NCBI RefSeq assembly: GCF_000355675.1
Contig: NC_020888.1
Span: forward strand, 2,188,883-2,252,882
Reading direction: 5' to 3'
Source: Thalassolituus oleivorans MIL-1
Lineage (GTDB): Bacteria > Pseudomonadota > Gammaproteobacteria > Pseudomonadales > Oceanobacteraceae
Length of the DNA stretch: 64,000 bases
Part shown: positions 40,308 to 53,096 of the stretch, piece after piece
Numbering within the stretch: position 1 is the first letter of the stretch
Layout: each line of letters starts with the position of its first letter
Notes under the pieces: generated by a model
Databases searched by the model: none
Told to the model about the DNA's origin: nothing
The model's input: only the letters and a program-made list of their open reading frames with translations
Translations under genes and position numbers: made by a program

Positions 40308-41264
40308 ATGAAAACACATGAAAACCTTTGGCCTGCGGAATTAGCCCAAGACTCCGAAGATCTGGCCTTGTTGGATCAAGCCAGTGTCGTTTTGAGTAAC
40401 TTTCCGAAGACTTGGTTATGCCAATGGCAAGAGGTTTGGCTGCCGCTTGCAGGATGGCTCGCTAGCAAGAAGCGATATGCAGCACTGCCGCCCATTATTG
40501 GCATTCATGGCGGGCAAGGTTCAGGAAAGTCCACTCTCAGTTTAGCCTTAGCCAAAATCTATAAAGAAGCCTTTAACTGGAACGTCGCTATCGTTTCCAT
40601 TGACGATTTGTACCTAACTCACGCCGAACGCGAAGAACTTGCAGCTACTGTTCACCCATTATTAATTACTCGTGGCGTACCGGGCACGCATGATTATGAA
40701 CTAGGACAAACCCTATTCGGCAAATTACGGCGCTTAAGCGCGGGCCATAAAGTAGCCATTCCAGCGTTCGATAAGGTATCCGATGATCGCTTGCCAGAAG
40801 ATCAATGGCATCAAATAGAAGGTCCTATCGACATGATTCTGTTTGAGGGTTGGTGTGTTGGCTGTCAGGCCGTTCCAGAACAAGCATTAGAGCAGCCAAT
40901 CAATGACTTAGAAGAAAAAGAAGACATTGGCGGACACTGGCGACGCTGGGTTAACGAGCAGCTGAAATATCACTACCACGACTGGTTCAATGCCATTGAT
41001 ACATTGGTCATGCTCAAAGTACCTGATATGCAAGCGGTTAGCCGCTGGCGCACCCAACAGGAGGAAGAGAATATTCGTAATCGCCGCGGTGACGGTGAAG
41101 ACCGCAGCTTGGATGAAATAGCGCTAGCCCGTTTTATTCAACACTATCAGCGGCTGACAGAGGAGGCATTAAGTTCACTTCCGAGTTATGCTGACTTAGT
41201 ACTTACCATCAATCATCAGCACTGTGTCGACAGCGTGATACAGACTGACGGGAGGCTTGCATGA
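40308..41264 (+). CDS. D-glycerate 3-kinase (plant/GLYK type)
   Basis: This P-loop kinase of 318 residues phosphorylates D-glycerate to 3-phosphoglycerate. Walker A is GIHGGQGSGKSTLS (about 64-77). Other landmarks are SIDDLYLTHAER, RGVPGTHDYELG, IPAFDKVSDDR and LFEGWCVGCQ, which match the GLYK/YggC-like family related to phosphoribulokinase. It overlaps the next gene by four bases (ATGA). The two genes after it use 3-phosphoglycerate to make glucosylglycerate, so this kinase probably supplies or recycles the glycerate moiety; that link is inferred from context. Confidence 0.9.
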   Translation: MKTHENLWPAELAQDSEDLALLDQASVVLSNFPKTWLCQWQEVWLPLAGWLASKKRYAALPPIIGIHGGQGSGKSTLSLALAKIYKEAFNWNVAIVSIDDLYLTHAEREELAATVHPLLITRGVPGTHDYELGQTLFGKLRRLSAGHKVAIPAFDKVSDDRLPEDQWHQIEGPIDMILFEGWCVGCQAVPEQALEQPINDLEEKEDIGGHWRRWVNEQLKYHYHDWFNAIDTLVMLKVPDMQAVSRWRTQQEEENIRNRRGDGEDRSLDEIALARFIQHYQRLTEEALSSLPSYADLVLTINHQHCVDSVIQTDGRLA

Positions 41265-42082
41265 TAGAAGAATCCATTCGTCCTGCCCTACCAATCGTGG
41301 TCATGACCGACTTGGATGGAACACTACTGGACCATGATAACTACAGCACTGCGGCAGCCAAACCCGCATTAACTTGGCTTCACACCCATCAGATTCCGTT
41401 AATATTCAATACCAGTAAGACCTATAATGAGGTCTATCAGCTAAGACGGACGTTAGATAACCACGATCCTTTTGTGTGTGAAAACGGCAGCGCTATTTTC
41501 ATCCCCAAAGCAGAAGGGACAGGTTACAACACCGAGTTTATAGGACTGCGTTACTCCGCCATATTGAAAGTGCTTCATCAATTGCGTCAGCAGGGATTTC
41601 ACTTTCGAGGCTTCAACGATATGCCAGCTACAGAGGTAGCCGCTCTGACAGGGCTTTCTATCGAAGACGCCCATAGCGCTAAGTCTCGTGATGGTACAGA
41701 GCCCGTTCTATGGCAAGGCAGCGAAGCTGAATTAGTAGCATTTAAGCTAGCCCTTACTGAACACAAATTACAACTTCTCGAAGGGGGACGTTTTCTTCAC
41801 GTTATGTCGCAAGTTGATAAAGCCGAAGGCGTAATCTTTTTTCGCCACCACTATCAAGAATTGTGGCAAGCTAACCCTATTGTAATTGCTTTGGGTGACA
41901 GCGATAACGACCGAGCCATGTTAGAAGCGGCCGACTATCCAATTGTTATTCCAGGCAAGAAATCGACACTTAAAATAAATAATAGTGCTGTGCAGTACGC
42001 AACGAGTCATGGTCCGAAGGGCTGGAACCAGACACTATTACCTCTATTAGAACAACTGCTGAAGGAGACTCGCAGTGGCTGA
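41261..42082 (+). CDS. gpgP: Glucosyl/mannosyl-3-phosphoglycerate phosphatase (HAD)
   Basis: This HAD-superfamily Cof/MPGP-type phosphatase of 273 residues would remove phosphate from glucosyl-3-phosphoglycerate to give glucosylglycerate. The motifs are the DLDGTLLDHDNY nucleophile, FNTSKTYNEV (motif II Ser/Thr), VDKAEGV (motif III Lys) and ALGDSDNDRAMLEAADYPIVI (motif IV). Family members often accept both mannosyl and glucosyl substrates; the adjoining GpgS-type synthase favours glucosyl. It overlaps the glycerate kinase by four bases and gpgS by eight. GGGAGG precedes the ATG. Confidence 0.9.
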   Translation: MIEESIRPALPIVVMTDLDGTLLDHDNYSTAAAKPALTWLHTHQIPLIFNTSKTYNEVYQLRRTLDNHDPFVCENGSAIFIPKAEGTGYNTEFIGLRYSAILKVLHQLRQQGFHFRGFNDMPATEVAALTGLSIEDAHSAKSRDGTEPVLWQGSEAELVAFKLALTEHKLQLLEGGRFLHVMSQVDKAEGVIFFRHHYQELWQANPIVIALGDSDNDRAMLEAADYPIVIPGKKSTLKINNSAVQYATSHGPKGWNQTLLPLLEQLLKETRSG

Positions 42083-43286
42083 TTTTTATCAGAATGGCAT
42101 CATCACTACGCTACACAATTTAGTCGATCGACCGTTAGAAGACTTAGAAAAAGAACTGATGAGTTTTTCTCGAACTCGACCAATGTCGTTAGTACTTCCA
42201 TCGCTGTACTCCGAACTTGAAGGCCCAGCGCTTGATAACATCATCACAGAACTTACCCAAGTGCCTTATCTCAATGAAATTGTGATTGGTCTTGATCGCG
42301 CCACCGAAGCCGAGTTCGAACATGCTAAGCATTTTTTCTCACGATTACCGCAACACCATCGTATTTTATGGAACGATGGCCCGCGCCTGAAGAAGCTAGA
42401 TGCGATGTTGGCCGAGCAAGGTTTAGCTCCCACCGAGCTGGGTAAAGGGCGTAACGTTTGGTATTGCTATGGCTATGTCTTGGCATCAGGTCGTGCAGAA
42501 TCCGTTGCCTTACATGATTGTGACATCATCACCTACGACCGCAGCCTACTTGCCCGTCTGATTTACCCTGTTGCAAATCCTGGTTTCAATTATGAGTTCG
42601 CTAAAGGGTATTACGCACGCATTGCCGATCAAAAACTCAATGGCCGTGTCAGCCGTTTACTCGTAACGCCGTTAATTCGCGCACTGAAAAAAGTGTATGG
42701 TTCTCTCGACTTCTTGGAGTACTTAGATAGCTTTAGATATCCATTATCAGGTGAATTTTCGATGCGCGCCGACGTGCTAAATGACATCCGTATTCCAAGT
42801 GATTGGGGCTTAGAAATTGGTGTTCTATCTGAAATGCGTCGCAACTACTCGACTAATCGTATTTGCCAAGTAGATATCGCAGATAACTACGATCATAAAC
42901 ACCAACCACTATCCCCAGATGATGCAGCGGCCGGCTTGTCGAAAATGAGCACCGATATCTGCAAAGCTATTTTCCGCAAACTAGCGACCCAAGGCGAAGT
43001 ATTCAGCACCGAAACCTTCCGCAGTATCAAGGCGACCTACTTCCGGATTGCCTTAGACTTTATTGAAACTTATTACAATGATGCGCGTATGAATGGACTA
43101 ACCGTTGATCGCCACAGCGAAGAGAAAGCGGTAGAGCTGTTTGCAGAAAACATCATGAATGCGGGCGAACATTTCTTAGCCAACCCCATGGAAACTCCCT
43201 TTATCCCTAGCTGGAACCGAGTAATCTCAGCGGTGCCTGACATTCTCGACCGTATTTACGAAGCGGTCGAAGAAGACAACGCCTAG
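42075..43286 (+). CDS. gpgS: Glucosyl-3-phosphoglycerate synthase (GT81)
   Basis: GpgS transfers glucose from an NDP-glucose to 3-phosphoglycerate. The 403-residue GT-A protein shows SLVLPSLYSELEGPAL, VIGLDRA, GKGRNVWYCYGY, the metal-binding HDCDI (DxD, about 147-151), the acceptor region RYPLSGEFSM, and IPSDWGLEIGVLSEM, which are diagnostic of the GpgS family. The start is GTG with AAGGAG upstream, inside the end of gpgP. UDP-glucose could come from galU, also in this window; donor preference is not visible. It is the last gene of its operon. Confidence 0.93.
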   Translation: MADFYQNGIITTLHNLVDRPLEDLEKELMSFSRTRPMSLVLPSLYSELEGPALDNIITELTQVPYLNEIVIGLDRATEAEFEHAKHFFSRLPQHHRILWNDGPRLKKLDAMLAEQGLAPTELGKGRNVWYCYGYVLASGRAESVALHDCDIITYDRSLLARLIYPVANPGFNYEFAKGYYARIADQKLNGRVSRLLVTPLIRALKKVYGSLDFLEYLDSFRYPLSGEFSMRADVLNDIRIPSDWGLEIGVLSEMRRNYSTNRICQVDIADNYDHKHQPLSPDDAAAGLSKMSTDICKAIFRKLATQGEVFSTETFRSIKATYFRIALDFIETYYNDARMNGLTVDRHSEEKAVELFAENIMNAGEHFLANPMETPFIPSWNRVISAVPDILDRIYEAVEEDNA

Positions 43287-43298
43287 GGCAAAATCACA

Positions 43299-43324
43299 CA
43301 AGGCTGCTATATACTGCAGCCTTG
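43299..43324 (+). terminator. Hairpin after gpgS
   Basis: CAAGGCTGC and GCAGCCTTG form a perfect 9-bp stem with an 8-base loop, beginning 13 bases after the gpgS stop. Only a short T-run follows. Confidence 0.65.
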
Positions 43325-43415
43325 TTTGATGATCAGCTCACACTTCCACTCTGACCCACATACAGTATCCCTACTGGCCGTATATTTTTTATTAGGAATC
43401 CTGTAAAAAGGCGAC

Positions 43416-44276
43416 ATGAAAACTCCGAAACGAATCCAGCCCCTAATCGACGAAGGCCTTGTCGATGAAGTTATTAGCCGCCTTATGAGCGGTAAAGAAG
43501 CCGATGTATACGTTGTCCGCAGCGACTCTGAAATTCGCTGCGCAAAAGTATACAAAGAAGCCGCTCAACGCAGCTTCAAAAAAGCTGCGCAGTACCAAGA
43601 AGGGCGAAAAACACGCAACAGCCGTCGTGCTCGGGCGATGGAAAAAGGCTCCAAGTTTGGTCGTAAGCAACAAGAAGCGACGTGGCACAATGCCGAGGTC
43701 GATGCGCTTTATAAATTGGCCGACGCTGGCGTTAGAGTACCAACGCCTTATGCCTGCATCGATGGCGTACTGCTGATGGAGCTAATAACCGACGAAGATG
43801 GCTATGTCGCGCCACGCCTTGGCGAAGTGACTATGTCGGCCGAGCAAGCGATTGAAGATCATGCAGTAGTCATTGAATACATAGTTCGTATGCTGTGCGT
43901 TGGTATCGTTCACGGTGATTTGTCCGAGTTCAATATTTTAGTCGACGAATATGGCCCCGTTATTATCGACCTTCCACAAGCCGTGGATGCTGCCGCGAAC
44001 AACAATGCAGAAGCCATGCTGGCTCGCGATGTGAATAAAATCCGCAGCTATTACGGTCAGTTCGCGCCGGAACTACTGGACACTCAATACGCAAAAGAAA
44101 TGTGGGCCTTGTACGAGGAAGGAGACTTGCATCCTGATATTGAGCTCACCGGACACTTTGATGGGCCAACCGAAGAAGCCGACGTCGATGCAGTGTTAGA
44201 AGAGATCAAAGCTGTACTAGCGGAAGAACAAGAACGCCAAGAACGGCTCAAAGATGACGATGAGGATGATCTTTAA
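43416..44276 (+). CDS. RIO1-like serine protein kinase
   Basis: This atypical protein kinase has 286 residues. The nucleotide loop is SGKEADVYVV (about 26-35), Lys is in IRCAKVYKEA, the catalytic loop is HGDLSEFNIL (about 166-175) and the metal Asp is in IIDLPQAVD (about 187). It lacks the usual DFG. The C-terminus is very acidic (DDDEDDL). Bacterial RIO-like kinases of this size occur in Pseudomonas (PA4780), but cellular targets are not settled. It is a separate unit downstream of gpgS, after a hairpin; a link with osmolyte metabolism would be speculation. Confidence 0.92.
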   Translation: MKTPKRIQPLIDEGLVDEVISRLMSGKEADVYVVRSDSEIRCAKVYKEAAQRSFKKAAQYQEGRKTRNSRRARAMEKGSKFGRKQQEATWHNAEVDALYKLADAGVRVPTPYACIDGVLLMELITDEDGYVAPRLGEVTMSAEQAIEDHAVVIEYIVRMLCVGIVHGDLSEFNILVDEYGPVIIDLPQAVDAAANNNAEAMLARDVNKIRSYYGQFAPELLDTQYAKEMWALYEEGDLHPDIELTGHFDGPTEEADVDAVLEEIKAVLAEEQERQERLKDDDEDDL

Positions 44277-44448
44277 CCTTCAAATTTGTATCGAATAGAG
44301 CCATGGACTGGCTTCTTAGCACAACAATTCTATTTTTCCTCTATCTCCCAACACAAAACATCGACTTGGCCTGATTTATCTTATTATTAAAGTCATCAGA
44401 TACGATAGACTAAGACCATAATAACTATTAACTACCGCGGAGAGAGCG

Positions 44449-45375
44449 ATGAAAGCACTTCATTGGCTACTAACTCGAACGTTTACCTACATCTCACTTA
44501 TACTGGCCTTCGTGGCTATCTACCTTATCGGCGACGATATGGGTAAATTGTTCCTATATTTTGTACTGCCATTCTACGTTGTAAGCTTAACCTTCCAATT
44601 GATTGCACCTAAGGTGAAAGCACCGTTAGAAAAGAACGAGCTGCTGACGGATATCATTTCTAACTCGGTAACAATCGGCCTCGTAAACACCATCCAGACT
44701 TGGGGTGTCGGTGTTGTTTTTGCCCTATCGTCTTCTAGCTTGTTGATCCACTACGGCATTATCGATGCTGAGTTTGGCTTAGCTAGCTTGCCATACTGGG
44801 CACAAGTAGTACTTGGCCTATTGATCATGGACTTCTTTTTCTATGTTACTCACCGCATGGCGCATGAAGTTCCATTTTTCTGGAACTTCCACGCCATTCA
44901 CCATTGCGCACATCGAGTAACCTTTATGAATGCGTACCGTGTGCACCCTGTAGATGCCATGTTCCGCCGCTACGTTCCGCTCTTCTTCGTGATGCTTACG
45001 GGTATTAGCCACGAAGCTTTTATCGCAGCTTCGATTATTGGTTCGGTTCTAAGTACGGTTACCCATTTGAACGTTGATCTACGTCACGGCTGGTTTAACT
45101 ACATCTTCGCGACCAACGAAAATCACCGCTGGCATCACTCGACCAAAATGTCAGAAGCTAAGAATTTCTCTATTATTACTATTTGGGACCACATGTTCGG
45201 TACCTTCTATTTACCGCGAGATCGTGACATGCCGACCAAAATCGGCTTAGGTGACGAAACGGGCTATCCGCTTCACAACTACTGGCAGCAACTGGTCGAA
45301 CCATTCCGTAAAAAGAAAGAAGAAGTCAAACCTGCCGTCACCAGCACAAGTGCGAAAGAAGAGGCACTGAGTTAA
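44449..45375 (+). CDS. Sterol desaturase/fatty acid hydroxylase family protein
   Basis: This 308-residue integral membrane protein of the di-iron hydroxylase superfamily has histidine clusters HRMAHE (about 135), HAIHHCAHR (about 148) and HRWHHS (about 226). About five hydrophobic helices precede or flank them. The charged C-terminal tail (KKKEEVKPAV) is probably cytoplasmic. Substrates in this family vary (sterols, fatty acids, ether lipids, carotenoids) and cannot be assigned here. GCGGAGAGAG precedes the ATG. It shares a terminator with the convergent phosphorylase gene. Confidence 0.9.
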   Translation: MKALHWLLTRTFTYISLILAFVAIYLIGDDMGKLFLYFVLPFYVVSLTFQLIAPKVKAPLEKNELLTDIISNSVTIGLVNTIQTWGVGVVFALSSSSLLIHYGIIDAEFGLASLPYWAQVVLGLLIMDFFFYVTHRMAHEVPFFWNFHAIHHCAHRVTFMNAYRVHPVDAMFRRYVPLFFVMLTGISHEAFIAASIIGSVLSTVTHLNVDLRHGWFNYIFATNENHRWHHSTKMSEAKNFSIITIWDHMFGTFYLPRDRDMPTKIGLGDETGYPLHNYWQQLVEPFRKKKEEVKPAVTSTSAKEEALS

Positions 45376-45413
45376 AACACGCCGCATAGCGTAATAAACT
45401 AGCTCAAATCGTC

Positions 45414-45448
45414 AAAGGCAGTCGCCGTTACAAAACGCGACTGCCTTT
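45414..45448. terminator. Bidirectional terminator between convergent genes
   Basis: AAAGGCAGTCGC and GCGACTGCCTTT make a 12-bp stem with an 11-base loop, followed by a T-run. It lies between the sterol-desaturase-family gene and the GH13 gene. Confidence 0.9.
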
Positions 45449-45456
45449 TTTATTGG

Positions 45457-47202
45457 CTAAACACTTTGAGTAAGCCAAACCGTTTGATAGGGGTACAAGA
45501 CTAGCTCGTCGATCAAAGTCGTTGGTTCCAACGCAAGAATATCCATCAAGCCATTTTCTAAAAATCCCAATGCCGCTAACGGCAATTTAAGTATCCGCTC
45601 CGTCACATTCGATATCGCATAGATACGTTGCGAAGCATCAACACTGGTACGCTTTAAAATAAATACGTCAGAGTTAATTTTCACCACATCTTGGCGAGCA
45701 TCAGGGCTAAACGCCGGTTGTTTGCGTCGAATCCGAATCATACGACTCAATTCGTGAAAAACTTCCGCTTGTGCCGTTACCGAATTCGATAACAAATATT
45801 CTAGCTCGTCTTTATCCCAAACCTTACGATTGATGGATCGCGTACGTCCTGTTTGCTCCACATGGGCTAAATCATTCGCCGATGCAGTAAAGCTATGAAT
45901 ATACAGTGCAGGAATGCCCTGCATCGCCAACATAATAGCTTGAGAACATAAGAAGCGCTGAACTTGAAAATGATCAACCCCGCGCCTTGTCCCCATACAC
46001 GCATCGAATAGCGTAATGTTTATTTCATATGGGCTTTCGCTACCATCGCTATTCGCTTTCATGCTCACAAAGCCACCAAAACGATGCATGCAGTCGATTA
46101 AATCTTGTACCTCCCGCTCAGGTAGAATCCCCTCCACAGGACGAACCCCAATGCCATCATGCGATGCCGTGAAGTTTAAATACGTACATCCTTTAGGCAA
46201 TACAGGAATAGAGTCAGCCCAATCCGATATAAAGGATGAATTGCCTCGATTTAAAGCGTGCAATACCAAAGGAGGTAAGCCAAATTGATATACCATATGC
46301 GCTTCGTCAGATTCACCAAAATAGCTTAGATTTTCGACAACTGGCACATTGGTTTCAGTAATTACGACGACTTCAGGAGCTACAAAATTGACGACATCAC
46401 GCAGCAGTTTTACCACCTCGTGAGTCTGCGGCAAATGCAAACAACGCGTACCAATTTGTTTCCACAAAAAGGCCACGGCATCGAGTCGAATAAAGCGTGC
46501 CCCGCGTTCAATATAAAACAAATAAATCTGAATAAATTCGAGCAATACTTTGGGATTGGCAAAGTTCAAATCTATCTGGTCTTCACTAAAAGTCGCCCAT
46601 ACGTGGCGAACACCTCGATGGGTATGCACAGGAGTCAACAACGGCGTATTGCGTGGGCGCGTGACCAAAGAAACATCCGTACTTGGATCAACCTCGATAA
46701 AGTATTCCGAATAGGGTTCATGATTACCGATGTAATCAACAAACCACAAATTTTCACGTGAACAATGATTGATGACTAGGTCGGCCATTAAATCAAACGA
46801 CGCAGCAATACTCGCAACATCATCCCAAGTACCCCACTCCGGATTGACTTGGCGATAATCAATTACCGAAAAACCATCATCCGAACTGTAGGGAAAAAAC
46901 GGTAAAATATGCACAGCGTTGACCGTTCCGGACAAGCGCTCAGACAAAAATTTGGCGAGTGTTTGCATAGGCACCTCTCCGGGCGCCTGAATACTATTGC
47001 CGTAAGTAATTAAAATAACGTCTTGTTCAGACCAGCGCGGAGAATCTGCACTGGTCGGCACTTGGAGTAACGTGCGCTGATTTGCTTCAACATAGTTTTG
47101 GCAGACACGCAGAAGGTCGTTAGCGAGTGCATCGACGTCTGTTGAGTTTCCATAAATCCGTTTTAAACGGTAAGCGAACTGTCCGAGCGCAGCATCTGAC
47201 AT
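45457..47202 (-). CDS. GH13_18 phosphorylase, probable glucosylglycerate phosphorylase
   Basis: This alpha-glucan-fold phosphorylase of the sucrose phosphorylase subfamily has 581 residues. The motifs are HILPFFPYSSDDGFSVIDY, LVINHCSRENLWF, the nucleophile Asp in FIRLDAVAFLWK (about 241), the acid/base Glu in ITETNVP (about 281) and FTASHDGIGVRP (about 346). Sucrose phosphorylases are near 500 residues, whereas glucosylglycerate phosphorylases such as E. coli YcjM are longer, which fits this one. It would split glucosylglycerate with phosphate into glucose-1-phosphate and glycerate. It starts nine bases after eda, with AAGGA, as the last gene of the zwf operon. Substrate is inferred from length and nearby gpgS/gpgP. 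Confidence 0.82.
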   Translation of the reverse strand: MSDAALGQFAYRLKRIYGNSTDVDALANDLLRVCQNYVEANQRTLLQVPTSADSPRWSEQDVILITYGNSIQAPGEVPMQTLAKFLSERLSGTVNAVHILPFFPYSSDDGFSVIDYRQVNPEWGTWDDVASIAASFDLMADLVINHCSRENLWFVDYIGNHEPYSEYFIEVDPSTDVSLVTRPRNTPLLTPVHTHRGVRHVWATFSEDQIDLNFANPKVLLEFIQIYLFYIERGARFIRLDAVAFLWKQIGTRCLHLPQTHEVVKLLRDVVNFVAPEVVVITETNVPVVENLSYFGESDEAHMVYQFGLPPLVLHALNRGNSSFISDWADSIPVLPKGCTYLNFTASHDGIGVRPVEGILPEREVQDLIDCMHRFGGFVSMKANSDGSESPYEINITLFDACMGTRRGVDHFQVQRFLCSQAIMLAMQGIPALYIHSFTASANDLAHVEQTGRTRSINRKVWDKDELEYLLSNSVTAQAEVFHELSRMIRIRRKQPAFSPDARQDVVKINSDVFILKRTSVDASQRIYAISNVTERILKLPLAALGFLENGLMDILALEPTTLIDELVLYPYQTVWLTQSV

Positions 47203-47211
47203 TCAACATCC

Positions 47212-47820
47212 TTAGGTAGCGATAGCGATAGTCGTAATGGCTTGCCAGTTTCGTGCCGACATTGCCTCCTTCGGCGTTAACCAACTTCCTCCCACGGCAA
47301 AGACATTTTTTAAAGCTAAATAATCGTGATAGGTTTCAGGGCCAATTCCACCGGTCGGACAAAAACGCACATCGGCAAATGGTCCACCTAAGGATTTCAG
47401 CATATCCACGCCGCCAGCCGCTGCTGCTGGAAAGAATTTCTGCCACATAAAGCCCGCGTCACGAACTTGCATAACCTCTGTCGGCGTCAATACACCCGGT
47501 AAAAATGGACCGCCCCACTCGCGCGCACAGGCTAAAATATCGCGGGTAAATCCGGGGCTTACTGCGAACTCCGCGCCCTCTTTTAGAGCATTTTCTAAAT
47601 CTTTACTTGAGGTCACTGTCCCTACGCCTACGATAGCTTCGGGCACCGCGTTTTTAATCTCTTTAATGGCCTCCAATCCGTGCGCAGTACGCAAGGTAAC
47701 TTCCAATAAACGCACCCCTCCTGCGACCAAGGCTTGAGCCATAGGAACGGCCGTGTCTAAATCATCAATAACGATAACAGGCATCACAGGTTTTGCGCGC
47801 TCTAACCATAAATCCCACAT
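47212..47820 (-). CDS. eda: KDPG aldolase Eda
   Basis: Eda cleaves 2-keto-3-deoxy-6-phosphogluconate to pyruvate and glyceraldehyde-3-phosphate, the last Entner-Doudoroff step. The class I aldolase has 202 residues: catalytic Glu in RLLEVTLRT, Schiff-base Lys in WQKFFPAAAAGG and the phosphate loop FCPTGGIG. AAGGATT precedes the ATG. It lies six bases after edd in the operon. Confidence 0.97.
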   Translation of the reverse strand: MWDLWLERAKPVMPVIVIDDLDTAVPMAQALVAGGVRLLEVTLRTAHGLEAIKEIKNAVPEAIVGVGTVTSSKDLENALKEGAEFAVSPGFTRDILACAREWGGPFLPGVLTPTEVMQVRDAGFMWQKFFPAAAAGGVDMLKSLGGPFADVRFCPTGGIGPETYHDYLALKNVFAVGGSWLTPKEAMSARNWQAITTIAIAT

Positions 47821-47826
47821 AATCCT

Positions 47827-49650
47827 TCACTCCCATCCTATGCTAATCGCACCTTCGTCGGCAGAACCGGCGTTGCGACGAAATACCGTAAATAATTCTC
47901 GGCCCACACCCATCGTTGAACTGCTCACATCCAAAGGCGCAAAGGCTGATATATTCCTTTGTGCGAAGTCCTCGGTTAATACGTTTAATGTTCCTGCGTG
48001 TCCATCTAAGCGAATAACATCGCCGTCTTTGACCATGTGCAGAGGGCCGTCAACGAGAGCCTCAGGGGATAGATGTATCGCGGCTGGAATCTTCCCTGAC
48101 GCTCCGGATAATCGTCCATCGGTTACTAAGGCAACACGAAAGCCTTTATCTTGTAAGTTAGTTAGTGCGGGAGTCAGCTGATGCAATTCCGGCATACCGT
48201 TTGCCCGCGGCCCTTGCCCTTTAACCACAACAATAACGTCGCAATTTAATTGATCTGCTTTATAAGCTGCCAACACTTGCTCTTGATCGGTAAATACTCG
48301 AACAGGCGCTTCGATAACCCAACGATCATCAGGAACCGCCGATACTTTCATCATGGCGCGACCTAAATTACCGTGCACTAGCTTCATTCCACCCTCGCGC
48401 ATAAACGGCGCATGTGCAGGGGCTAATACCGATAAATCCAAGCTTTCACTGACAGCTGGACGCCATTGAATAACGCCATGATCGTCGAGCCATGGTTCCT
48501 GAAAATAGTGATGTAATCCATTACCCATAATGGTTTTTACATCGGTATGAAGTAGTCCAGCATCCGCGAGTTCGCGCATTAAAAATGCCATGCCTCCGCT
48601 TTGATGAAAGGCATTAATATCCGCACTTCCGTTAGGATAAACTCGTGTCAAAGCAGGCGTAACATCCGATAAATCTGTCATGTCTTGCCAGTCGATTTGA
48701 ATACCAGCCATGCGCGCAATGGCGATTAAATGAATACTATGATTCGTTGAGCCGCCGGTCGCCAGTAAGCCGACAATGCCATTGACTATGGTACGTTCAT
48801 CAACCATTTGCCCTATCGGAGTATAATCGGGCGCCAATGCCGTTATTTCGCTCACGCGCTGCGCCGCTAATTCGGTTAATGGCTGGCGTAAAGCATCATC
48901 GGGGTTCACAAATGAAGACCCCGGCAACTGCAATCCCATAATTTCCATCAGCATTTGGTTGGAATTAGCAGTGCCATAAAAAGTACAGGTGCCACTGCTG
49001 TGGTAAGACTTCATTTCACTATCGAGCAATTCCTCTTCGCCGACATCTCCTGCAGCGAACGCCTGTCTTACTTTTGCTTTAGCTTGGTTACTAATACCAC
49101 TGCGCATCGGCCCAGCCGGAACAAATACCGCAGGGATATGACCAAAGCGTAACGCCGCCATTAATAAACCGGGAACGATTTTATCGCAGATGCCGAGCAT
49201 TAAAGCGCCATCAAAAACTTGGTGTGACAACGCAATAGTGGTACTCATGGCGATAACATCACGACTAAACAAGGACAACTCCATACCGGTTTGTCCTTGC
49301 GTAACGCCGTCGCACATTGCTGGAACACCACCGGCTACTTGGCCAACATGCCCAGCCTTGAGCAAAGCTCGTTTCAATATATCGGGATAACCTTGGTACG
49401 GCGCGTGAGCCGATAAAACATCGTTATACGCCGTAACAATTCCAATATTTGCACCACGATGACTCGACTTTAAAATCAATTTATCGTTGTCTGGAGCCGC
49501 AGCATAATCATGAGCTAAATTAGTACAACTAAGCTGTCCTCGCACAGGGCCGTTCGCCAAATCATCGGCTATGCGTTGCAAATAGGCCGCACGAGTTTGT
49601 CGGCTACGCTGCTTAATTCGCTCGGTGACACTAACAATAACGGGATGCAT
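47827..49650 (-). CDS. edd: 6-phosphogluconate dehydratase Edd
   Basis: Edd dehydrates 6-phosphogluconate to KDPG. The IlvD/Edd-family iron-sulfur protein has 607 residues with the Cys-bearing motifs MCDGVTQGQ, GICDKIVPGLL and GTCTFYGTANSNQ, and the C-terminal TDGRLSGASGKIPAAIH. Its ATG shares one base with the pgl stop (TAATG), and GGAGCG lies upstream. Length and motifs are normal for 6-phosphogluconate dehydratase rather than IlvD. Confidence 0.97.
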   Translation of the reverse strand: MHPVIVSVTERIKQRSRQTRAAYLQRIADDLANGPVRGQLSCTNLAHDYAAAPDNDKLILKSSHRGANIGIVTAYNDVLSAHAPYQGYPDILKRALLKAGHVGQVAGGVPAMCDGVTQGQTGMELSLFSRDVIAMSTTIALSHQVFDGALMLGICDKIVPGLLMAALRFGHIPAVFVPAGPMRSGISNQAKAKVRQAFAAGDVGEEELLDSEMKSYHSSGTCTFYGTANSNQMLMEIMGLQLPGSSFVNPDDALRQPLTELAAQRVSEITALAPDYTPIGQMVDERTIVNGIVGLLATGGSTNHSIHLIAIARMAGIQIDWQDMTDLSDVTPALTRVYPNGSADINAFHQSGGMAFLMRELADAGLLHTDVKTIMGNGLHHYFQEPWLDDHGVIQWRPAVSESLDLSVLAPAHAPFMREGGMKLVHGNLGRAMMKVSAVPDDRWVIEAPVRVFTDQEQVLAAYKADQLNCDVIVVVKGQGPRANGMPELHQLTPALTNLQDKGFRVALVTDGRLSGASGKIPAAIHLSPEALVDGPLHMVKDGDVIRLDGHAGTLNVLTEDFAQRNISAFAPLDVSSSTMGVGRELFTVFRRNAGSADEGAISIGWE

Positions 49651-50351
49651 TATTCGCTCCTGTAAATACTCAAAGGCACTTGAGATTGGTACAGCAAGGT
49701 TCTCACTGGCATTGCCGCAATATTTTGGCGTTCTGTTTTTTCCGTTGCCTGCTCATATACGGCATTTTTATCAGCACCTTCAAAATGCAGATACAGGTGA
49801 CGACAATTAGACAGAAGACCCCATGTGAGCGTCATACGCGGAAGTTCAATAGGCTCATCAATAACCGGACAACACCATGCGGCACCACCTTCGTTTAGAC
49901 ATTTACTTAAGGCATCGGAATCAGGGAACCAAGAAGCAGTATGCCCATCGTTACCCATACCTAGCACAGCAAAATCTAGGCGTACCATCAATTCATGCAA
50001 TTTATTCTCGCACTCCATAAACCCAGAGACCGGATCTTTCGCGCGATTTTTTAAGGGTAAAAAGTAGGCGCTCGCCGCTTTATTTTTCAATAAATGCTCG
50101 CGTACTAAACGGGCATTACTCGCTGCATTGTCTTCATCAACCCAACGTTCATCAACTAATGTAATTAATACTTTTTGCCAAGGGATATCTCGTGTGGACA
50201 GTTCTTCAAAAAAGCGGATTGGCGTACTTCCTCCACTGACGGCGATACACACTCGGCCTCGAACTTCAATTGCTTCAGCCATGCGCTCAGCAAGATCATC
50301 CGCTAATTGTTTGGCTAATACATCCGAACTTTTAAATCGATTACCACTCAT
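49650..50351 (-). CDS. pgl: 6-phosphogluconolactonase Pgl
   Basis: Pgl hydrolyses 6-phosphogluconolactone to 6-phosphogluconate. The 233-residue SOL/DevB-type protein shows CIAVSGGSTPIRFFEEL, ITLVDERWV and VLGMGNDGHTASWFPDS. GAGGAG precedes the ATG. It is translationally coupled to edd and lies 47 bases after zwf. Confidence 0.95.
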   Translation of the reverse strand: MSGNRFKSSDVLAKQLADDLAERMAEAIEVRGRVCIAVSGGSTPIRFFEELSTRDIPWQKVLITLVDERWVDEDNAASNARLVREHLLKNKAASAYFLPLKNRAKDPVSGFMECENKLHELMVRLDFAVLGMGNDGHTASWFPDSDALSKCLNEGGAAWCCPVIDEPIELPRMTLTWGLLSNCRHLYLHFEGADKNAVYEQATEKTERQNIAAMPVRTLLYQSQVPLSIYRSE

Positions 50352-50398: not shown

Positions 50399-51856
50399 TT
50401 AGCTATTTTCGTCCCATAACCGCCCTTCTTTCGCTAACAGCAATGTGGCTGCCGCTGGACCCCAAGAGCCAGAAGTATAGGGTTCTGGACGTTGTTCGAT
50501 TTCTTCCCAATAGCTTAAAATAGGATCAACCCAACGCCACGCTTCTAGTAATTCATCATCACGTAAAAATAAAGTCGCATTCCCGCTCAACACATCGAAC
50601 AACAAGCGTTCGTAAGCCTCTGGCACTCGGGTTTGCTTATGATTTGCAGGATTTAAACTTAAATTCATTGGTCGCACATTCATACCTGGGCCTACGCGTT
50701 TTTCGCACAACATTAAGCGCACGCCTTCATCCGGTTGCAGACGAAACACCAATTTATTAGCCATAGTGCTTTTATGTTGCAATGGAAATATTGAGTGCGG
50801 TATTTCTTTAAAATGCACCACAATCTCACATGCTCGCTCAGCCAGACGTTTACCTGTACGTAAATAAAATGGAACCCCCGCCCAACGCCAGTTATCAATT
50901 TCGACTTTTACCGCGACAAAAGTTTCAGTCATGCTTTTAGGGTGTACGCCCGGCTCATCTCGATAGCGTGGAACTGGCTTGCCCTCAGCAACACCGGCAT
51001 CGTACTGGCCGCGAACAACGTTATCGCTAATGTGATTGCCAACAATCGGTTTTAAGGCGCGCAATACTTTTACTTTTTCGTCGCGTACAGAATCCGGATC
51101 TAACCGAGCCGGAGGCTCCATTGCCGTGATACACAGCAATTGCAGCAGGTGATTTTGAAACATATCGCGCATTGCACCCACTTGTTCATAAAACTCGGCG
51201 CGCTTCTCGACTCCAATAGATTCTGAAATAGTGATTTGTATATGATCGATATAATGCTGATTCCATTGCGACTCAAACAATGAATTGGCAAAGCGCAGCA
51301 CCATTAGATTTTGTACCGTCTCTTTACCTAAATAATGATCAATACGATAAATCTGACATTCGTCAAAATATTCAGAAACGATATTGTTAATGGCAGATGC
51401 CGATTCGTAATCATGGCCGATGGGCTTTTCGAGGACGATTTTACTGTTGCTTTTGATCAACCCACTATCGTGTAACCCTTGGCAGATAGGAGTATAAAGA
51501 TCGGAACCTGTTGCTAGATAATACACACGATTTGGATCATCGCTGCCCAATGTCGTAGCGAGATCGAGATAACCTTGCGCGCTATTAAGATCAATCGTCA
51601 AGCAATGCAGGCACTGACTAAAACCTTCCCACGTTGCTAATTCTAAATATTCAGATGGCAGATGTGATTTGAGCGCTTTTTCAATACGCCCTAAGAAATC
51701 CTCGCGCTCTAGTGTTTGGCGAGTGGCGGCGAAAATACGTCCGCTGGGTAAACGACCATCTCGATACAGTAGATATAGCGCCGGCATTAACTTACGTAAT
51801 GCTAAATCTCCAAGCCCGCCAAATAACACCAGCTCATATGGTGCATTAATGTGCAT
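50399..51856 (-). CDS. zwf: Glucose-6-phosphate 1-dehydrogenase Zwf
   Basis: Zwf oxidises glucose-6-phosphate to the lactone and makes NADPH or NADH. The 485 residues include the Rossmann-type LVLFGGLGDLALRKLMPALY, the signature RIDHYLGKE (about 178) with catalytic His nearby, and the EKPIGHD motif. It reads FGGLGDLA where the common motif is GASGDL. GGAGG precedes the ATG. It opens the zwf-pgl-edd-eda-GH13 operon. I looked for a HexR-like palindrome upstream and found none that convinces. Confidence 0.97.
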   Translation of the reverse strand: MHINAPYELVLFGGLGDLALRKLMPALYLLYRDGRLPSGRIFAATRQTLEREDFLGRIEKALKSHLPSEYLELATWEGFSQCLHCLTIDLNSAQGYLDLATTLGSDDPNRVYYLATGSDLYTPICQGLHDSGLIKSNSKIVLEKPIGHDYESASAINNIVSEYFDECQIYRIDHYLGKETVQNLMVLRFANSLFESQWNQHYIDHIQITISESIGVEKRAEFYEQVGAMRDMFQNHLLQLLCITAMEPPARLDPDSVRDEKVKVLRALKPIVGNHISDNVVRGQYDAGVAEGKPVPRYRDEPGVHPKSMTETFVAVKVEIDNWRWAGVPFYLRTGKRLAERACEIVVHFKEIPHSIFPLQHKSTMANKLVFRLQPDEGVRLMLCEKRVGPGMNVRPMNLSLNPANHKQTRVPEAYERLLFDVLSGNATLFLRDDELLEAWRWVDPILSYWEEIEQRPEPYTSGSWGPAAATLLLAKEGRLWDENS

Positions 51857-52262: not shown

Positions 52263-53096
52263 ATGATTCGCAAATGCCTGTTCCCTGTTGCCGGTTATGG
52301 CACACGTTTTTTGCCTGCAACAAAGGCTATGCCTAAAGAAATGCTACCAATCGTTAATAAACCTTTGGTGCAGTACGGCGTTGAAGAAGCAGCAGCCGCG
52401 GGTTTGAACCGCATCGGTTTCATCACTGGTCGCGGTAAACGCTCCATTGCCGACCACTTCGACATCAGCTATGAGTTAGAGCGCGAAATCGCTGGTAGCG
52501 GCAAAGAAGAGCTGCTGACCTCTATTCGTAAGCTTATCGACGAAAACGAATTTGCCTTCAAACGTCAAAATCACATGAAGGGCTTAGGCCACGCCATCCT
52601 TTCTGGTCGTTATCTGATGGGCGATGAGCCTTTTGCCGTTGTTCTTGCCGATGACTTATGTGTTGTTGACGAAGGCGAAGAAGGCGTATTGGCGCAAATG
52701 GTTAAGCTATACAAGCAGTTCCGCTGTTCTATCGTCGCTATTCAGGAAGTACCTGAAGATGAGGTACACAAGTACGGCGTAATCGCTGGCGAATACATGA
52801 AAGACGGTCTGTACCGTGTTACCGACATGGTTGAAAAACCAGCCAAAGAAGATGCACCAAGCAATCTAGCGATTATCGGTCGTTACATCCTGACTCCGGA
52901 CATCTTCGAACTTATTGAGAACACAAAGCCAGGCAAAAATGGCGAAGTACAGATTACCGATGCGCTACTGAAACAGGCTCAAGATGGCTGCGTACTGGCG
53001 TATAAATTCAAAGGCCGTCGTTTTGATTGCGGTAGCATCGACGGTTTTGTTGAAGCAACAAACTACGTGTACAACAACGTGTTTAAGAAAGACTGA
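52263..53096 (+). CDS. galU: UTP-glucose-1-phosphate uridylyltransferase GalU
   Basis: GalU makes UDP-glucose from glucose-1-phosphate and UTP for envelope polysaccharides and, here, possibly for glucosylglycerate. The 277 residues show the nucleotidyl-transferase motif FPVAGYGTRFLPATKAMPKE, the VVLADDL metal site and VEKPAKEDAPSNLAIIGRY. AGGA precedes the ATG. It is transcribed divergently from zwf. It can also use the glucose-1-phosphate released by the GH13 phosphorylase. Confidence 0.98.
   Translation: MIRKCLFPVAGYGTRFLPATKAMPKEMLPIVNKPLVQYGVEEAAAAGLNRIGFITGRGKRSIADHFDISYELEREIAGSGKEELLTSIRKLIDENEFAFKRQNHMKGLGHAILSGRYLMGDEPFAVVLADDLCVVDEGEEGVLAQMVKLYKQFRCSIVAIQEVPEDEVHKYGVIAGEYMKDGLYRVTDMVEKPAKEDAPSNLAIIGRYILTPDIFELIENTKPGKNGEVQITDALLKQAQDGCVLAYKFKGRRFDCGSIDGFVEATNYVYNNVFKKD

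Follow-up and report, generated by a model that had tools for sequence, protein, structure and literature searches.

A predicted glucosylglycerate synthesis and recycling system in Thalassolituus oleivorans MIL-1 with the recycling gene at the end of zwf-pgl-edd-eda

Glucosylglycerate (GGA) serves as a solute in marine cyanobacteria of waters poor in nitrogen. Genes for glycerate kinase, GpgS or GpgP frequently accompany the gene for glucosylglycerate phosphorylase (GGaP), an enzyme whose exact metabolic function is described as unconfirmed by experiment (available part of PMC7178133), and in Marinobacter, GPGS, GPGP and GGAP are found together in 198 of 250 genomes (available part of PMC10873239). 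In E. coli, ycjM, whose product is annotated as a GGaP, has sugar-related genes and ABC transporter genes for neighbours, and the surrounding 20 kb contain no annotated GGA synthase. Thalassolituus oleivorans MIL-1 is a marine, obligate hydrocarbon degrader, and here we analyzed a stretch of 64,000 nucleotides of its genome (bases 2188883-2252882 of a single contig of 3,920,328 bp; hereafter the window), which very probably encodes a GGA synthesis and recycling system whose recycling gene is joined to a central sugar operon. The GGA cycle is known in kind and its chemistry is not new: the predicted reactions are those of the described gene sets (PMC7178133, same part), and the three enzymes are those of Marinobacter (PMC10873239, same part). 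The unusual feature is a recycling gene placed last in an operon of central sugar breakdown, in MIL-1 and close relatives. In the described sets these genes are neighbours and zwf-pgl-edd-eda is unmentioned in the available part of PMC7178133, whereas in MIL-1 GGaP is last in that operon, on the strand opposite to the synthesis genes; unlike MIL-1, the Marinobacter loci L120 and L121 have a codirectional four-gene order and no link to zwf-pgl-edd-eda. The GGA literature, at the level of abstract beginnings, gave no account of a linkage of GGaP to zwf-pgl(-edd-eda). A search for literature on GGA in Thalassolituus found none, and the main text of the MIL-1 proteome paper, in its available part, contained none of the terms sought (PMC6304351).

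The locus consists of two opposed groups of genes. On the plus strand (40308-43286), the genes of a kinase, a phosphatase and a synthase overlap by 4 nt and 8 nt, respectively, and on the minus strand GGaP is the fifth and last gene after zwf-pgl-edd-eda, 9 nt from eda. Both arrangements had been claimed in an original prediction made from the sequence of this region, and the open reading frames bear them out. The zwf-pgl-edd-eda genes and galU fall outside 40308-47202, yet belong to the same picture; galU, on which the original prediction was silent, is divergent from zwf. The genes are:

40308-41264, plus strand, putative GLYK-type D-glycerate (3-)kinase, 318 aa, with phmmer matches to 7xpc and 6ckg
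41261-42082, plus strand, predicted glucosyl-3-phosphoglycerate phosphatase (GpgP) of the HAD-IIB MPGP subfamily (TIGR01486), 273 aa
42075-43286, plus strand, predicted GpgS-type glucosyl-3-phosphoglycerate synthase, 403 aa, GTG start, NF040724 match below cut-off
45457-47202, minus strand, GH13_18 protein and predicted GGaP, 581 aa, PF00128, with TETN and PYE motifs
47212-47820, minus strand, eda, 2-keto-3-deoxy-6-phosphogluconate (KDPG) aldolase, PF01081 1e-68, TIGR01182 above the subfamily cut-off
47827-49650, minus strand, edd, phosphogluconate dehydratase, TIGR01196 926 bits (cut-off 708)
49650-50351, minus strand, pgl, 6-phosphogluconolactonase, TIGR01198 173 bits (cut-off 124)
50399-51856, minus strand, zwf, glucose-6-phosphate dehydrogenase, TIGR00871 580 bits (cut-off 401)
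52263-53096, plus strand, galU, UTP-glucose-1-phosphate uridylyltransferase, TIGR01099 387 bits (cut-off 327)

The published marks of GGaP are a (T/S)ETN motif that replaces the usual acid/base loop and a Glu in place of Gln in loop A (available part of PMC7178133). The 581-aa protein carries both, with T282-E283-T284-N285 at the tip of strand 5 and P391-Y392-E393 in loop A. In an alignment of 14 sequences including E. coli YcjM, which is 42% identical to the window protein and has the same two motifs, ETN and PYE are invariant, with ETN preceded by T in 13 sequences and by S in one. D241, E283 and D349, which we take to be the catalytic Asp, Glu and Asp of GH13, are invariant as well. At the two motif sites, the five best solved matches (sucrose or glucosylglycerol phosphorylases, or unnamed) have LPE(I/V)H and (D/A)IYQ. 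Loop A of the window protein, NSDGSESPYEIN, differs from the N(L/V)D(I/L/V)YQ of sucrose phosphorylase, and its score against the NCBIfam sucrose phosphorylase model is 214 bits, below the cut-off of 334; the NCBIfam set used had neither a GGaP model nor a GLYK model among the listed matches. By both published signatures, the 581-aa protein is predicted to be a GGaP (EC 2.4.1.352) that would act on GGA.

The products of the plus-strand operon were compared with known families in the same way. The kinase carries the P-loop GGQGSGKST, and its best matches are solved D-glycerate 3-kinases (phmmer; 7xpc, 4.4e-24 over residues 55-286; 6ckg, 1.2e-19), with similarity spanning most of the chain; its predicted product is 3-phosphoglycerate. 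When the closed genome was searched for glycerate kinases of the PF02595 and PF05161 families, none was found. The phosphatase passes the TIGR01486 subfamily cut-off (210 bits against 164.75), and among solved proteins it matches 1xvi (3e-33) and the MpgP 3ztw (4e-20). The synthase aligns with NF040724 (GpgS_Meth) over residues 3-402 at 374 bits, below the equivalog cut-off of 700, and is by this comparison a full-length relative of that model and no strict member. A profile built from 11 synthase relatives matched solved GpgS (2e-9) more closely than MpgS (2e-6).

We determined the occurrence of these genes in 142 related genomes, counting only GH13_18 matches of the GGaP type (86 of 99 genomes with any match), kinase matches of at least 30 bits (88 of 89 genomes retained) and Edd matches of at least 300 bits, with lower ones excluded as ilvD-like (101 of 137 genomes retained); for split matches, one piece was used, except for G082, where the outer span was used. 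GGaP and GpgS are each present in 86 genomes, together in 85, and one is found alone in only two: G101 has GGaP at a contig end and no GpgS, and G085 has GpgS with neither GGaP nor a GLYK or PF02595 kinase. GpgS lies upstream of GGaP in all 44 genomes in which the two are codirectional within 10 kb, and of the 76 genomes with both GLYK and GpgS, 66 have them on one strand no more than 2.5 kb apart. GLYK-GpgP fusion proteins of 576-658 aa are encoded in five of 59 fetched loci (L060:7162-9138, L072:6441-8183, L159, L167 and L173), and in eight genomes the kinase and phosphatase matches fall in open frames of the same length, which suggests fusion there too.

A glycerate kinase is encoded in 85/85 genomes with GGaP and GpgS, being of the GLYK type in 76 and of other families in nine; of the genomes without GGaP, by contrast, 20 of 56 carry a GLYK or PF02595 kinase, the two types covered there. 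These nine, from six family groups, have a PF02595 kinase (seven genomes) or a PF05161 kinase (two genomes) instead. A comparison of 80 of the 86 GGaP genomes, which excluded G101 and five GLYK holders (G001, G004, G005, G006 and G008), shows a kinase of the PF02595 or PF05161 family in 9/9 genomes lacking GLYK and in 4/71 holding it (Fisher 3e-9, uncorrected for ancestry). In one genome without the GLYK type (G125, L171:418-3266), the gene of a PF02595 glycerate kinase and that of GGaP share 1 nt; also in G125, a gene preceding GGaP was considered as eda and rejected, as it encodes a LysE-type translocator instead. Since all 85 genomes have a kinase, drawn from three families, there is good evidence that the released glycerate would be re-phosphorylated to phosphoglycerate.

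The encoded enzymes would form a cycle. GpgS is predicted to transfer glucose from UDP-glucose, the presumed donor, to 3-phosphoglycerate, and GpgP would remove the phosphate from the resulting glucosyl-3-phosphoglycerate to yield GGA, the candidate solute. In the cell, GGaP would work in the direction of breakdown, converting GGA and phosphate to glucose-1-phosphate and D-glycerate, and the GLYK-type kinase would return the glycerate to 3-phosphoglycerate. The glucose-1-phosphate could become UDP-glucose via GalU, or glucose-6-phosphate that enters Zwf-Pgl-Edd-Eda. Simultaneous operation of all steps would waste ATP and UTP, so separate control of synthesis and breakdown is to be expected, which separate operons permit; in the clade of MIL-1, GGaP would be transcribed with zwf-pgl-edd-eda, away from the synthesis operon, so that separate switching would be possible. 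The closed cycle of the original prediction, although not new, is thus well supported by motifs, co-occurrence, linkage, fusion and kinase replacement in up to 142 relatives; its proposal that GGA is made under salt or nitrogen stress finds no support in the sequence.

The arrangement of the genes differs among lineages. Of the 47 genomes with both GGaP and GpgS that fall outside the window's family group, 32 have the two genes codirectional within 2.5 kb. Of the 38 such genomes inside the group, 11 show this codirectional arrangement, 23 have the genes convergent within 2.5 kb, and four have them at a greater distance or on separate contigs. Six further loci of the MIL-1 genus were fetched: in five (L036 and L038-L041), gpgS and GGaP are convergent with about 70-100 nt between them, and in the genome of L037 they are on different contigs. 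Between the two operons of MIL-1 lie two unrelated genes (window 43416-45375), which encode a RIO1-like kinase of the PA4780 family and a protein of a fatty-acid hydroxylase family; neither is present between gpgS and GGaP in the five loci. Convergent GGaP and GpgS genes also occur in Halomonadaceae and roseobacters, which shows that opposed orientation alone is common. The split over two opposed operons thus holds for the MIL-1 locus; as a general state it does not, being a trait of some lineages and not the commonest arrangement.

The linkage to zwf-pgl-edd-eda is narrower. Of the family genomes with both Edd and GGaP, 21 of 37 have them on one strand no more than 5 kb apart, compared to 0 of 38 other genomes; in one of the 21 (G037), Edd is upstream of GLYK. 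In all 17 loci with eda upstream of GGaP the gap is 4-82 nt. In seven fetched loci of another genus (g2), zwf-pgl precedes GGaP in six, with a gap of 157-319 nt in five and of 3.5 kb in one, and the seventh (L055) has neither zwf-pgl nor edd-eda before GGaP; Edd of g2 is encoded elsewhere in the genome and is 56-59% identical to that of the window. The interval of about 3.5 kb between pgl and GGaP (L058:5752-9258, G009) holds no recognised pathway gene and has a 465-aa open reading frame on the minus strand. Among the best 80 of at least 569 named loci, a set which is biased towards the window sequence and in which several loci have short flanks, the zwf-pgl-edd-eda block adjoins GGaP in Thalassolituus only, and in one Larsenimonas locus (L133) a weak match to eda (34%) lies at about 3.4 kb from GGaP. 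In the GGaP tree, the sequences linked to zwf-pgl-edd-eda and those of g2 group together (99), apart from the other genera of the family; the trees come from a quick search under a simple model and carry long-branch warnings, and L173 dropped out of the GGaP tree. A constraint holding all family sequences together was rejected for GpgS (approximately unbiased test, p 0.0002-0.0003) as well as for GGaP (p 1.7e-87). Replacement of GGaP alone by a foreign copy in this clade was also considered, and such a single-gene swap is unsupported, as the constraint is rejected for GpgS too.

On the other side of zwf, galU is present in 17/24 fetched loci of the window's clade vs 6/35 of the other fetched relatives, and in 3 of the best 80 of at least 569 named loci, at a distance of about 7 kb in L132. 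In several fetched loci it adjoins GGaP, and galU and GGaP are divergent neighbours in G036, G048, G050 and G090 and in Endozoicomonas and Aliagarivorans loci. One simple history would be that galU and GGaP were once divergent neighbours and that zwf-pgl(-edd-eda) later came between them. GalU could turn the glucose-1-phosphate released by GGaP back to UDP-glucose, which would close the sugar half of the cycle.

The MIL-1 genome also encodes a parallel, predicted glucosylglycerol-type system about 1.43 Mb from the GGaP locus and thus outside the view of the original prediction. Two genes at about 806-814 kb of the genome belong to it:

L034:9822-11270, plus strand, second GH13_18 protein, 482 aa, with the motif VGAIYQ
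L034:15369-17627, plus strand, fused HAD-GT20 gene, putative glucosylglycerol-phosphate synthase

The HAD-GT20 protein passes the cut-off for glucosylglycerol-phosphate synthase (771 bits against 569), and its gene is 4 kb from that of the 482-aa protein. The latter passes the NCBIfam cut-off for sucrose phosphorylase (501 bits against 334), yet carries VGAIYQ, the glucosylglycerol mark, which speaks for a glucosylglycerol phosphorylase over the NCBIfam call. The pair resembles GgpPS and GGoP of Marinobacter, a fused phosphatase-synthase and a GH13_18 phosphorylase (available part of PMC10873239), which differ from the GGaP system of the window in solute, motif and locus. The whole genome has only these two PF00128 matches, the window GGaP and the 482-aa protein, and as both are predicted solute phosphorylases, the search gave no sign of a glycogen-branching enzyme from this family.

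Sucrose phosphorylase is the best NCBIfam match of the window GH13_18 protein, although under the cut-off, and among solved proteins it is closest to sucrose and glucosylglycerol phosphorylases; the enzyme could then act on one of these substrates and merely lie near GGA synthesis genes. We consider this very improbable, since both GGaP motifs are present in the protein and the sucrose and glucosylglycerol motifs are absent, the glucosylglycerol role is apparently filled by the 482-aa protein, and it is that protein which passes the sucrose phosphorylase cut-off. If the enzyme is a GGaP, it might mainly assimilate external GGA, as may be suggested by the annotated ABC transporter genes adjoining E. 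coli ycjM and by putative GGaPs in organisms that are not thought to build up GGA (available part of PMC7178133). However, neither operon of MIL-1 has an apparent transporter gene, and GGaP and GpgS occur together in 85 of the 87 genomes with either, which makes a mainly external substrate very unlikely. In mycobacteria, GpgS serves the methylglucose lipopolysaccharides, and GGA could similarly be an intermediate for a polymer or lipid and not a free solute; in MIL-1, however, GpgS is accompanied by a phosphorylase and by a kinase for the predicted return of glycerate, and the synthesis operon has no further sugar-transfer gene, so this role is very unlikely.

The synthesis and recycling of the cell's own GGA thus agrees best with these observations, and several points weigh against it or against its link to the Entner-Doudoroff pathway. 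The four cycle proteins all fall short of equivalog status in NCBIfam, and the phosphatase passes a subfamily cut-off only; the p-values for co-occurrence ignore shared ancestry; the kinase count in genomes without GGaP covers the GLYK and PF02595 types only; and no regulatory motif was found in the HexR scan of the window or among palindromes and k-mers upstream of zwf and GLYK. As to the pathway, the linkage of GGaP to zwf-pgl(-edd-eda) is confined to one clade, and edd-eda is beside GGaP in none of the seven fetched loci of g2. The linkage could then be a neutral rearrangement with no regulatory meaning, in which zwf-pgl(-edd-eda) came between the prior neighbours galU and GGaP; their divergent adjacency in relatives fits this, and one origin suffices on the GGaP tree. 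We regard this as rather less likely than not: eda and GGaP have stayed linked with short gaps in four genera (g1, g5, g7 and g8), across which GGaP identity falls to about 72%. The original prediction that GGA glucose is reclaimed into the Entner-Doudoroff route is accordingly backed by gene order in MIL-1 and weakened by g2, where the operon lacks edd-eda and zwf-pgl is kept in 6/7 loci; such reclaim is plausible but unproven. A bolder idea, speculative and rather unlikely, is that zwf-pgl-edd-eda mainly burns the cell's own compatible solutes, with GGA as osmolyte and reserve that would be recovered as NADPH, pyruvate and 3-carbon units after osmotic stress, and with the galU side settling the choice of re-synthesis or burning. 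The function of GGaP becomes testable in a clade such as this one, where the breakdown gene stands apart from the synthesis genes and is linked to an operon of central carbon metabolism.

Sequences that might regulate the two operons were also sought. The HexR-type operator scan of the window (up to two mismatches) gave 52 matches compared to 54.7 expected, with none between zwf and galU. The sequences that precede zwf in 23 loci and GLYK in 21 loci have no palindrome common to most of them, and their commonest 8-mers occur in 11/23 and 10/21 loci, respectively. Sigma-70-like sites were fewer than in shuffled sequences (9 vs 22.6), and terminator-like sites in the region were not commoner (17 vs 14.2). 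Two candidate operon ends are:

43298-43325, hairpin directly downstream of gpgS, where the synthesis operon may end, listed by the scan as terminator-like on the minus strand only
45414-45452, inverted repeat with a T-run between the convergent fatty-acid hydroxylase gene and GGaP, possible shared terminator, visible in the sequence and unlisted by the scan

In relatives, a further GH13-like gene of about 540-550 aa (L042:2583-4238 and L050:14935-16554) lies beside a prephenate dehydratase-like gene.

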